From NCBI RefSeq assembly GCF_016065055.1, contig NZ_CP065856.1:3037836-3101835 (forward strand): a stretch of DNA of 64,000 nt, given 5' to 3'. The DNA comes from Halosimplex litoreum (GTDB lineage Archaea; Halobacteriota; Halobacteria; Halobacteriales; Haloarculaceae). How positions within the stretch are numbered: position 1 is the stretch's first letter; each line of letters begins with the position of its first letter. This document shows, in pieces, positions 2,988 to 21,659 of this stretch. The notes beneath the pieces are model-generated. The model had not been told where the DNA came from, made no database searches, and was given only the letters and a program-made list of their open reading frames with translations. The position numbers and the translations under genes are program-made.

Positions 2988-3177
2988 TCCGTCCTCGAGA
3001 CGTTGCTCGCAGTCGCTCTCCGGCGAGTCGGTCCGTTGCTCGGTGAAACCGGACGCAGACGCACTCGTTCGTTCTACGCGCTGCGCTCGACCGCCAGGGT
3101 TCGGCTCTACGAAACCAACGACAGACGGGACGAAGGCGAGCGACATGGAAGTCGCTTGTAGAGTCGTGCCGGCAGAA

Positions 3178-3202
3178 GATGGGTTGGGGCGGAGTTGAAC
3201 CG
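3178..3202 (-). repeat. Direct copy of the tRNA-Val 3' end
   Basis: These 25 bases are identical to 3291-3315, which covers the discriminator base, the acceptor 3' strand, the T-loop and part of the T-stem of the neighbouring tRNA-Val, plus two flanking bases. The copy is in the same orientation as the tRNA, 113 bp away on its 3' side. It also forms one arm of a palindrome with 3241-3254. Such copies are typical of tRNA-associated integration scars, but no integrase lies between them. Confidence 0.85.
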
Positions 3203-3254
3203 GAATCAGACGTGCTCGCTTCGCTGCGCGCGACTGATGGGGTTCAACTCCGCC
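3188..3254. repeat. Palindrome built from tRNA-Val T-arm sequence
   Basis: The 14 bases GGCGGAGTTGAACC (3188-3201) have a perfect inverted partner GGTTCAACTCCGCC (3241-3254). The stem continues with ATCAG (3205-3209) pairing with CTGAT (3234-3238). The loop contains AGACGTGCTCGCTTCGCT. The inverted copy continues to 3261 with near-identity to the remainder of the tRNA 3' end. The same architecture is found beside tRNA-Phe at 21.5 kb. Confidence 0.85.
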
Positions 3255-3261
3255 AGACCCA

Positions 3262-3291
3262 CCTGCCGCTCACGGGTTTGTTCGCGGCAGG
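3262..3291 (-). terminator. Hairpin directly 3' of tRNA-Val
   Basis: CCTGCCGC (3262-3269) pairs perfectly with GCGGCAGG (3284-3291) and begins one base after the tRNA 3' end on the minus strand. It may be a termination or processing signal for the tRNA transcript. No U-run follows, so the terminator role is inferred from position only. Confidence 0.45.
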
Positions 3292-3292
3292 A

Positions 3293-3367
3293 TGGGTTGG
3301 GGCGGAGTTGAACCGCCGACTTCCTCCGTGTGAAGGAGGTATCATAACCGGACTAGATCACCAACCC
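3293..3367 (-). tRNA. tRNA-Val(CAC)
   Basis: A complete 75-nt cloverleaf reads on the minus strand. The acceptor stem GGGTTGG pairs with CCAACCC and is followed by the discriminator A. The anticodon stem CCTCC/GGAGG encloses the loop TTCACAC, giving anticodon CAC. The T-arm is GGCGG-TTCAACT-CCGCC. No CCA is encoded. A TATA-like TTCTTAAGG on the minus strand lies about 30 bases upstream (plus strand ~3395-3403), inside the end of the preceding ORF. Confidence 0.95.
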
Positions 3368-18907: not shown

Positions 18908-19606
18908 TCACCCCTCGAGGTAGTCGGGCCGCTCGTCGTAGTCGATGGGGTCTTCGACGCCGGCTCGCTGGAACGCCTGCAGTCGGAAGGCGCAGGCGTC
19001 GCAGGTGCCGCAGGCGGGCGCTTCCTCGCGGTAGCAGCTCCAGGTGATGTCGTAGGGCACGTCGAGTTCGAGCCCGCGCTCGGCGATGTCGGTCTTCGAC
19101 CACTCGACGAACGGGGCGACGAGTTCGATCTCCGTCTCCGGTTTCGTACCCACGCGCATCACCTGCTGGAAGGCGTCGAAGAATTCGGGACGACAGTCGG
19201 GATACCCCGAGAAGTCCTCGCTGTGGGCGCCGATGAACACGGCCGAACAGTCGGTGGCCTCGGCGTAGGAGGTCGCCATCGCGAGCAGGTTCGCGTTCCG
19301 GAACGGGACGTAGGAAGTCGGGATCTCCTCGCTGTCGAGGTCGGCGTCGGCGACGTCCATCTCGGCGTCGGTCAGGCTCGACGCCCCGATCGCCGCGAGG
19401 TGGCGCGTTTCCACGTGACAGAAGTCGGCGGCGTCGACGTCCCCGGCGAGTGCCTCGGCGCACTCCCGTTCTTTGGTCTCGGTCTCTTGGCCATAGGAGG
19501 TGTGGAAGAAGTACGGCTCGTAGCCCCTGTCCATCGCCTCGTAGACCGCGGTTGCGCTGTCCATCCCGCCCGATACCAGAATCACGGCTCGGTCGTTGTC
19601 GGTCAT
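18908..19606 (-). CDS. queC: 7-cyano-7-deazaguanine (preQ0) synthase
   Basis: 232 residues from the ATG at 19606. The PP-loop ATPase motif is VSGGMDSATA near the N-terminus, followed by FFHTSYGQETETKERECAEALA. Near the C-terminus the zinc site is CYREEAPACGTCDACAFR. QueC converts 7-carboxy-7-deazaguanine plus ammonia to preQ0. In archaea preQ0 is inserted at position 15 of tRNA by ArcTGT and matured to archaeosine. It is the last gene of the queD-queE-queC operon, 33 bp after queE. Confidence 0.96.
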   Translation of the reverse strand: MTDNDRAVILVSGGMDSATAVYEAMDRGYEPYFFHTSYGQETETKERECAEALAGDVDAADFCHVETRHLAAIGASSLTDAEMDVADADLDSEEIPTSYVPFRNANLLAMATSYAEATDCSAVFIGAHSEDFSGYPDCRPEFFDAFQQVMRVGTKPETEIELVAPFVEWSKTDIAERGLELDVPYDITWSCYREEAPACGTCDACAFRLQAFQRAGVEDPIDYDERPDYLEG

Positions 19607-19639
19607 GTTTGAATCGTCGTGCGGTCGCAATTATTCAGT

Positions 19640-20431
19640 TCAGGTCCCCGGCGCGTCGTTCCACAGGTCGACGTGTAGCCGCGGCGTGTACCGATAGCCG
19701 TACGCCGCCGCCAGTTCGGCCACCGTCTCGCGCGTCTCGTCGAGGCGCTCGCGGGTCTGTCCCTCCGGCATCAACAGCACGTCCGAGTCCGCGACGGTCG
19801 CGGTCGCCGCCGCGCGCACCCGCTCGACCAGGCGCTCGATCTCCGCCACGTCGTCGCGGTCGGTGACGACGAACTTCAACTGGGTCTCGTAGGCGTCGAC
19901 CAGTCGCGCGAGCGCCTCGATATCGACCCGCCGGTCCTCGTGGCGGTCGGCCCACTCGCCGTCGCCTTTCGGGTCGCGCTCTGCGGTCGGCGTGCTGCTC
20001 GCCAGTTTCGGACTGACGCTCGCCAGGTCGATCGGCGCGTCGCGGTAGACCGTCCCGTTCGTCTCGACGGTAGTGTGATACCCCGCCGCGTCGAGCCGTT
20101 CGAGCAGATCGACCACCTCGTCGTGGATCATCGGTTCGCCCCCGGTCACCACGACGTGGTCGGCGCGGCCGTGGTCGGTCCGGGCGCGCTCGGCGACCGC
20201 GTCGACGACCTCGTCGACCCCCATCCAGGCGTGGGTCGGCTCCCAGGAGGTGTGATAGGAGTCACAGAACCAACAGCGGAGGTTACAGCCGCTCGTTCGG
20301 ACGAACACGCTCGGGACGCCAGCGAGTTTTCCCTCTCCCTGCAGCGAGTGGAACAGCTCGTTGACCGGCAGCGCCTCCTCGGCGTCGGCGGGGCGGTCGG
20401 CTGCCCCCTCGACCGCGTCGTTCACCGGCAT
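19640..20431 (-). CDS. queE: 7-carboxy-7-deazaguanine synthase (radical SAM)
   Basis: 263 residues. The radical SAM cysteines C49, C53 and C56 (SGCNLRCWFCDS) have the CX3CX2C spacing. The substrate region LPVNELFHSLQGEGKLAG precedes them, and VVTGGEPMIH is the SAM-binding GGE motif. It converts 6-carboxytetrahydropterin to 7-carboxy-7-deazaguanine with a [4Fe-4S] cluster and SAM. Its ATG overlaps the queD stop by one base, so it is coupled to queD. Confidence 0.96.
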   Translation of the reverse strand: MPVNDAVEGAADRPADAEEALPVNELFHSLQGEGKLAGVPSVFVRTSGCNLRCWFCDSYHTSWEPTHAWMGVDEVVDAVAERARTDHGRADHVVVTGGEPMIHDEVVDLLERLDAAGYHTTVETNGTVYRDAPIDLASVSPKLASSTPTAERDPKGDGEWADRHEDRRVDIEALARLVDAYETQLKFVVTDRDDVAEIERLVERVRAAATATVADSDVLLMPEGQTRERLDETRETVAELAAAYGYRYTPRLHVDLWNDAPGT

Positions 20432-20880
20432 CAGTACGTTGCACAGAGTTCGCTCGTCTCGCTCACCGCGACGGCCACCTCGGAGACGGTGTCGGGGAAC
20501 GCCTCGCGCAGCTTCCGTTCGAGGACGACCGCCATCACCTCCGCCGTCGGCGGCCGTTCGAGCACGACCACCGCGTCGCCGTCACCGCTCGCCTCGAACG
20601 CCTCGACCAGCGGGTCGCCCCGTTCGAGCAGGAACATGTGGTCCCACTCGAAGATGACTGCAGTAATATCGCCTTTGTCGACGACCCATCCCTCCTCGCG
20701 GAGCCGTCCCGTCACCTCGACGCGGATCTCGTAGTTGTGCCCGTGCGGTCGCGAACACTTCCCGTCGTGGTGCCGGAGTCTGTGCCCCGCGCTGATCCGG
20801 ATCGGTCGGTCGCCGCCGACGACGAGCGTCCGCTCCTCGCTCCCGGCCGCGTCCGATCCGCTTCGCCCCCGTCCAGTCAT
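20431..20880 (-). CDS. queD: 6-carboxytetrahydropterin synthase
   Basis: 149 residues. The zinc and active-site motifs are ISAGHRLRHHDGKCSRPHGHNYEI, with His ligands and the catalytic cysteine, and a late DKGDITAVIFEWDHMFLLE region with the catalytic Asp/His. It makes 6-carboxytetrahydropterin from dihydroneopterin triphosphate, the first committed step to preQ0. It opens the archaeosine precursor operon. A TATA-like CTTTAGTAC lies ~30 bases upstream on the minus strand. Confidence 0.95.
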   Translation of the reverse strand: MTGRGRSGSDAAGSEERTLVVGGDRPIRISAGHRLRHHDGKCSRPHGHNYEIRVEVTGRLREEGWVVDKGDITAVIFEWDHMFLLERGDPLVEAFEASGDGDAVVVLERPPTAEVMAVVLERKLREAFPDTVSEVAVAVSETSELCATY

Positions 20881-21454: not shown

Positions 21455-21479
21455 ATGCCGCCTCCCGGATTTGAACCGG
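21455..21479 (-). repeat. Direct copy of the tRNA-Phe 3' end
   Basis: These 25 bases are identical to 21585-21609, the discriminator, acceptor 3' strand, T-loop and four T-stem bases of the adjacent tRNA-Phe plus one flanking base. The copy is in the same orientation as the tRNA and 130 bp away on its 3' side, the same design as at tRNA-Val (3178-3202). Confidence 0.85.
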
Positions 21480-21532
21480 AGGAAGACGTACTCACTCGCT
21501 CCGCTCGTTGCGCGTGACTTCCAGGGTTCAAA
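21468..21532. repeat. Palindrome built from tRNA-Phe T-arm sequence
   Basis: GGATTTGAACC (starting at 21468) is inverted as GGTTCAAATCC (ending near 21534). An inner GGAAG/CTTCC (about 21481-21485 and 21518-21522) extends the stem. The loop holds AGACGTACTCACTCGCTCCGC and then TGCGCGTGACT, closely similar to the loop of the tRNA-Val palindrome (AGACGTGCTCGCTTCGCT then GCGCGCGACT). Confidence 0.8.
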
Positions 21533-21550
21533 TCCACTCGACGTCGTTTT

Positions 21551-21580
21551 CTCGACCGTTCGCTGTCGCTCACGGTCTCG
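21551..21580 (-). terminator. Hairpin directly 3' of tRNA-Phe
   Basis: CTCGACCGT (21551-21559) pairs with ACGGTCTCG (21572-21580) with one unpaired base, starting five bases after the tRNA 3' end on the minus strand. Its position matches the hairpin behind tRNA-Val, and both contain CCGTGAGCG on the minus strand. Confidence 0.45.
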
Positions 21581-21585
21581 AAATA

Positions 21586-21659
21586 TGCCGCCTCCCGGAT
21601 TTGAACCGGGGACAGCTCGATCTTCAGTCGAGTGCTCTCCCAGTCTGAGCTAAGGCGGC
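21586..21659 (-). tRNA. tRNA-Phe(GAA)
   Basis: A 74-nt cloverleaf reads on the minus strand. The acceptor GCCGCCT pairs with AGGCGGC and is followed by discriminator A. D-arm: TAGCTCAGACTGGGAGAGCA. The anticodon stem CTCGA/TCGAG encloses the loop CTGAAGA, giving anticodon GAA. The T-arm is CCCGG-TTCAAAT-CCGGG. No CCA is encoded. Confidence 0.96.

Follow-up and report, generated by a model that had tools for sequence, protein, structure and literature searches.

At the tyrT locus of Escherichia coli, the rtT repeats form tandem units behind a tRNA gene, and the 3′ end of the tRNA recurs in every one of them. These repeats occupy a single locus, the repeated unit is longer than the haloarchaeal units described here, and no host-matched inverted arm is known for them.

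In haloarchaea, the small mobile repeats (SMRs) and palindrome-associated elements (PATEs) of Haloquadratum resemble these units in being gene-less, palindromic, about 80-200 bp in length and present in many copies; the mobilisation of SMRs is unexplained (PMC3119063). PATEs and SMRs produce no target duplication and are not bound to tRNA genes, the SMRs preferring PATE palindromes (PMC3119063), whereas the units analysed here lie behind tRNA genes and contain a direct copy duplicating 21-22 nt. Integrative elements with SNJ2-type integrases share with the units the tRNA 3′ end as a target, a direct repeat of the tRNA tail and an intact tRNA gene, but they carry an integrase and kilobases of genes (PMC8371274), and the units carry none. 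Compared with tyrosine-integrase elements in general, the units show the tRNA-tail direct repeat and an exact empty site, but lack an integrase gene of their own.

Integron attC cassettes, also known from archaeal integrons (PMC9668308), are likewise folded palindromes with a variable tip that are added beside a docking site; in contrast to integrons, the units have no IntI, attI or cassette genes, and their box sequences are different. Casposons and CRISPR adaptation offer a further parallel, i.e. target duplication at a tRNA 3′ end and leader-proximal addition (PMC6977970), but casposons generate duplications of 14-15 bp, have terminal inverted repeats and need Cas1, whose family (PF01867) is absent from the genome analysed here. 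No description of the units was found in the literature searched, which included haloarchaeal SMRs, PATEs, tRNA-integrated proviruses, archaeal integrons and casposons and covered the subscription literature in part, so an earlier description is possible.

Palindromic units behind tRNA-Phe and tRNA-Val

The window, i.e. the whole analysed stretch of 64,000 nt of the Halosimplex litoreum genome (G000; genomes G001-G007 include the congeners compared), contains units behind tRNA-Phe(GAA) and tRNA-Val(CAC), all on the minus strand. Their features are as follows.

21586..21659 (-), tRNA-Phe(GAA), intact (ARAGORN; Rfam tRNA, 65.5 bits)
21606-21586 (-), donor segment D, the last 21 nt of tRNA-Phe (G53-N73)
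21551..21580 (-), h1 hairpin directly 3′ of tRNA-Phe (folded as DNA, z -3.2)
21525..21535 (-), inverted T-arm copy I of the Phe unit, GGATTTGAACC (sequence; profile over 148 units)
21465..21537 (-), core palindrome of the Phe unit, the I-core-D′ arm (model R1, 85.9 bits; covariation; DNA fold z -2.8)
21456..21476 (-), D′, direct copy of tRNA-Phe G53-N73 (sequence; 148-unit profile)
21456..21585 (-), complete Phe unit, 130 nt
3293..3367 (-), tRNA-Val(CAC) (ARAGORN)
3180..3292 (-), proximal Val unit, 113 nt, with h1, inverted T-arm at 3254-3241, core and D′ at 3200-3180 (DNA fold z -7.0)
3047..3179 (-), older, decayed Val unit that has lost D′ (R1 match at 3047-3101; D′ identity 0.19)

The first-pass annotation had described the order tRNA, hairpin, inverted T-arm, loop and direct copy at tRNA-Phe. 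This order was confirmed, and it is identical at tRNA-Val(CAC), where the arms are of the Val type. The 25 identical bases that had been taken as the length of the direct copy result from coincidental matches at its edges: the exact 25-nt match to the tRNA-Phe 3′ end (CCGGTTCAAATCCGGGAGGCGGCAT, 21479-21455, minus strand) encloses D′, and the copy proper, as defined over 148 units, extends from G52 or G53 to N73 (21-22 nt).

Comparison of congener flanks revealed that G006 keeps the core of the Phe unit and its downstream flank, and no unit was seen at tRNA-Phe of G002-G005. Downstream of tRNA-Phe (18908-20880, minus strand), consecutive genes for QueC, a radical-SAM QueE-like and a PTPS/QueD-like protein were distinguished by Pfam; this row is likely a preQ0/archaeosine operon.

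Structure and pairing of the units

Each unit is about 100-150 nt long, has no gene of its own and consists of four parts: a variable h1 hairpin, the inverted copy I, a conserved core hairpin and the direct copy D′. In the mean profile of the 148 units, identity to the tRNA is 0.84-1.0 throughout D′ and at background on both sides. The inverted copy is confined to the T-loop and the 3′ T-stem (about 12 nt) and does not include the acceptor part. A candidate arrangement in which I spans the whole tRNA tail, as in a dumbbell circle, was rejected, since the acceptor part stays at background (0.27) in the 148-unit profile.

The arms follow the host tRNA, as had been proposed. D, D′ and I agree in 86% of 1798 T-arm cells across tRNA types; D differs from D′ in about 2% of the cells and I from D in about 13%. 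At Lys-ttt and Val-gac, D′ and I carry the same change and the tRNA is unchanged. The proposal that the elements copy their host tRNA describes the arrangement in part: D′ is an insertion-associated duplication of the tail, I is its short palindromic partner, and the core is a module common to different tRNAs. The sequence of h1 varies both between tRNAs and between species.

The copy I pairs with D′, and the inner stem covaries (GGAAG/CTTCC, ATCAG/CTGAT, GGCAG/CTGCC). In the covariation analysis suggested by the first-pass annotation the signal was strong, at 0.301 compared with 0.127 +/- 0.015 in shuffled alignments and at most 0.08 when the alignment was slid, with 14 pairs changed on both sides. 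I, core and D′ thus form a covarying imperfect palindrome with an unpaired spacer and a tip. Many cores end in a GNA triloop within tandem G-A motifs, an arrangement that makes a stable DNA mini-hairpin. At the mismatch position T-T is the commonest combination (63 of 164, by a rough regular expression); it was rejected as an obligatory feature, since A-T and T-A pairs occur at the same position.

Departures from Watson-Crick pairing comprised 24 G-U and 27 A-C in the inner stem, 99 G-U and 30 A-C in the outer arms, and 51 G-U and no A-C in the control, the tRNA stems of the same loci and genomes, all counts being taken over cells that are not independent and from an alignment that leans to the model. 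Given the 24:27 ratio against 51:0 in tRNA stems, conservation of the inner stem at the RNA level seems doubtful.

Distribution in the genome and among haloarchaea

Covariance model R1, describing the inverted-arm/core/direct-arm hairpin, was built from 15 units. At E<0.02 it yielded 29 matches in the H. litoreum genome, of which 25 lie 32-294 nt 3′ of a tRNA gene on the same strand, covering 17 of the 45 tRNAs. With a chance of about 0.003 for each match to fall within 300 nt 3′ of a same-strand tRNA, the binomial probability is ~1e-58, in agreement with the earlier judgement that the arrangement is not fortuitous. One further match has been shifted about 9 kb from tRNA-Ile by an integrated element. 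The remaining three, weak generic hairpins without the AGTC/GTCT motif, were rejected as units.

A survey of all 45 tRNAs identified the arrangement at many of them, with arms that track each host (e.g. AATT at Gly-ccc, AACTCC at Val-cac, GTAGATTTG at Met, and TTCGAA at Leu and Arg). As regards the generality suggested by the first-pass annotation, the units recur at many tRNAs and across haloarchaea, but they are not universal: 28 of the 45 tRNAs have no unit by the model, a few decayed units and the displaced one coming on top of the 17.

Matches to R1 were found in 34 of 40 relatives. In a sample of the phylum, the family was present in 43 of 45 haloarchaea, with up to 32 matches per genome, and in none of about 200 non-haloarchaeal members. 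Units away from tRNAs, which according to the first-pass annotation would speak against its reading, were not found. Among 164 non-redundant R1 matches, 156 are preceded by a tRNA at a distance of up to 547 nt (154 on the tRNA strand, two flipped), and those matches without an upstream tRNA that were inspected lie at contig ends or behind integrated elements. An independent DNA pattern, applied to named genomes of Halorubrum, Halobellus, Halosimplex, Natronomonas, Haloarchaeobius, Halovivax and others, gave 37 matches; 32 are behind a same-strand tRNA, and the remaining five lie either at the end of a contig or behind a copy of a tRNA tail.

At the Rfam gathering score only the tRNA passed, and the units match no known Rfam family. 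Two exact-pattern scans of viral contigs gave chance or tRNA-antisense matches only, and no unit. In a blastn comparison of the Phe region with phages and plasmids, no part of the query other than the tRNA was matched.

Single tRNAs followed by a tandem array of two to four units were observed in G243 (L273), G234 (L258), G271 (L252) and G008 (L232). Some of these units have the same or almost the same score and spacing (the period is 152 nt in G243), which points to recent amplification. In the tRNA-Phe flank of G026 (L166), partial copies of tRNA-Phe stand in tandem and extend as far back as the anticodon arm; a hairpin is inserted precisely where T-stem and T-loop meet. Two loci, G006:C1:2778898-2783297 and G013:C1:2635202-2637763, each hold a compact group of about ten tRNA-like genes, possibly within integrated viruses. 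Hairpins with the tip CGCAGCGAnCGnAGnGAGCGAG, without tRNA arms or the AGTC/GTCT motif, are located behind other genes of H. litoreum (G000:C1:1560479, 2674884 and 2084627); the CGCAGCGAnCGnAGnGAGCGAG cap appears to be a generic hairpin module of haloarchaea that spreads on its own.

Empty sites, order of growth and core exchange

Congeners differ at several tRNAs by whole units. The proximal Val(cac) unit (113 nt) is missing to the base in G007, and the sequence beyond it in G000 equals that directly behind tRNA-Val of G007. The h1 region of the decayed Val unit aligns with the first unit behind tRNA-Val of G007 and partly with that of G002. At Arg(tct), four genomes (G000, G003, G004 and G005) are empty, with a T-run flank directly behind the tRNA; G006 has one 120-nt unit followed by the same flank (G006 position 121 corresponds to G003 position 1), and G001 has 217 nt, i.e. 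two units, before it. At this locus, the clearest of those compared, the unit thus comes to stand between the tRNA and a T-run flank resembling its terminator. G000 and G006 are exactly one proximal unit apart both at Leu(taa), where G000 position 120 equals G006 position 1, and at Arg(gcg), where 151 equals 1. Each addition thus puts one unit directly behind an intact tRNA, leaving the tail G52/53-N73 in duplicate; since this tail is present twice, the tRNA stays intact.

Within arrays, the proximal D′ is more intact than the distal one in 13 cases and less so in one (p 0.002). Together with the exact proximal-unit differences, this would be explained most simply if new units join next to the tRNA and older ones become distal and decay, where the polarity of the insertions is a matter of parsimony over few genomes without a species tree, and units may equally be lost when D recombines with D′.

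Cores that show two differences or fewer in 41-67 nt are shared by different tRNAs, both within one genome (e.g. at Ser-gga and Gly-ccc of G000) and between genera, with arms that remain host-specific. The similarity of h1 stays flat at about 0.49 whatever the similarity of the cores. As cores are nearly identical at different tRNAs and h1 does not travel with them, sequence comparison indicates that the core is an exchangeable module, and h1 and the arms are local. Two flipped cores were identified in G013. Template switching is known to make the arms of inverted repeats uniform and to turn round the spacer between them (PMC8604942), and such a step may account for both the host-matched arms and the flipped cores.

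Integrative elements at the same tRNA genes

A 9.1-kb element is inserted in tRNA-Ile(GAT) of H. litoreum (L191 1-10301; G000:C1:907900-918200). It carries a gene for a 336-aa tyrosine integrase beside attR, itself a stretch of 25+ nt from the tRNA tail; past attR there is an older palindromic unit. In G006, three elements of 12.5, 9.1 and 2.8 kb (L187, L188 and L189) are located between a tRNA and its palindromic unit; their att copies are about 13-15 nt long, and in two of them the integrase C-terminus (KHYDRR) ends just before attR. Besides the tRNA-Ile element, integrative elements were found in Tyr, Trp and one further tRNA. These elements share tRNA tails with the units, but they differ in having terminal att sites of 13-27 nt without the inverted T-arm or the core, and are positioned between the tRNA and a separate unit.

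Origin of the units

We tentatively favour, at a probability of roughly 0.4, the view that these are gene-less, tRNA-specific insertion units whose arms are kept matched by template switching and which depend on a putative recombinase acting at the T-loop. The T-loop is a classic att site of tyrosine recombinases, and an enzyme of this type is favoured by the invariable position of the boundary at the T-loop and by an orientation that is nearly always that of the tRNA. A site-specific recombinase would insert or exchange units there, replication template switching between the inverted arms would preserve the match of I with the host-derived D′ and now and then flip the core, and recombination between D and D′ would duplicate or delete units. 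Weighing against this view, neither a recombinase nor a transposase could be associated with the units, and the analysis revealed no autonomous relative. If a tyrosine recombinase integrated a circle, the acceptor strand of the donor would come with it and should inactivate any isoacceptor other than its own; such integration therefore fits moves within an isoacceptor, and the spread of cores between isoacceptors needs exchange by another route. Moreover, h1 and core do not travel together, so that the “element” may not be mobile as one piece.

The layout could also have arisen without a dedicated enzyme, by template switching at the transcribed tRNA tail that makes D-I-D′ triplications with hairpin junctions, ectopic recombination between the T-arms, whose sequences are near-universal, then copying cores from tRNA to tRNA and expanding or deleting units. 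The D-I-D′ order, the arm matching, the flipped cores and the identical tandem arrays (G243, G271, G234) fit such an origin, as do the exchange of cores without h1, the homogenised arms and inverted spacers expected of template switching (PMC8604942) and the quasi-palindrome mutations known in highly transcribed DNA (PMC3820800). We nevertheless regard it as rather unlikely, for it leaves unexplained the constant G52/53-N73 boundary at all tRNA types, the confinement to tRNAs, the single orientation and a core family common to several genera, and the T-arm homology available is only about 12 bp. A function at the RNA level, in which the unit is co-transcribed as a tRNA 3′ trailer and its hairpin guides 3′ processing, termination or stability, would suit the tRNA-strand orientation of 154 of 156 units, the excess of G-U over A-C in the outer arms (99 vs 30) and the position of the G006 Arg(tct) unit upstream of the T-run flank. 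It is distinctly unlikely in view of the inner stem (24 G-U vs 27 A-C, against 51 vs 0 in tRNA), the absence of units at more than half of the genome's tRNAs and at the same tRNA in related species, and the fact that cores can be flipped.

As the same tRNA tails serve genuine integrative elements (the tRNA-Ile element of 9.1 kb with its tyrosine integrase, and those at Tyr, Trp and one more tRNA), the units might be remnants of proviruses or other integrated elements of which the att ends alone are left. This is quite improbable: the element ends have no inverted T-arm or core, the elements have the tRNA on one side and a separate unit on the other, the units are uniform in length and structured, and the scans of viral contigs found none. 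An integron-like origin, with I-core-D′ as a folded single-stranded attC-like site and the tRNA T-arm as the docking site for gene-less cassettes, appears very improbable as well. The geometry is similar (an outer paired box, a 2-3 nt unpaired spacer, an inner covarying box, a frequent T-T mismatch and a variable tip), as are the GG|TTC boundary, the addition beside the docking site and the common DNA-type GNA triloops, but there are no cassette genes or attI, and the best match to the integron integrase model TIGR02249 in the genome reaches 35.4 bits against a cut-off of 265, on which ground membership of the integron/attC class was rejected. The boxes GATTTGAAC / GTTCAAATC have C at position 4, in disagreement with RYYYAAC / GTTRRRY (GTTCRAA in place of GTTRRRY). 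Staggered-cut insertion by a Cas1- or casposase-like integrase, with the tRNA tail as target-site duplication, would account for the host-specific D and D′ and for addition beside the tRNA, and casposases do insert at tRNA 3′ ends (PMC6977970). It is the least probable alternative: Cas1 (PF01867) is absent from six of 12 unit-bearing genomes, including G000 and G243 with its near-identical tandem units, and the duplication of 21-22 nt contrasts with the 14-15 bp and terminal inverted repeats of casposons (PMC6977970). A dependence of the units on Cas1 is thus disfavoured.

Beyond the insertion units favoured above, one may speculate, with little expectation of being right, that a haloarchaea-wide recombination system docks tiny gene-less cassettes at the tRNA T-arm, where a folded single strand would re-create the T-arm duplex and cassettes would be added one by one beside the tRNA, like integron or CRISPR arrays.

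Biological significance

The units stand behind essential tRNA genes in nearly every haloarchaeal genome sampled, and they duplicate the tRNA tails that serve as attachment sites of proviruses and genomic islands. Through this duplication they could shape the landing sites of mobile DNA and confuse the annotation of tRNAs and att sites. Their arms offer a clean natural example of palindromes matched to their host, in which template switching could be measured, and the exact empty sites render the mechanism of insertion directly testable in culturable species.
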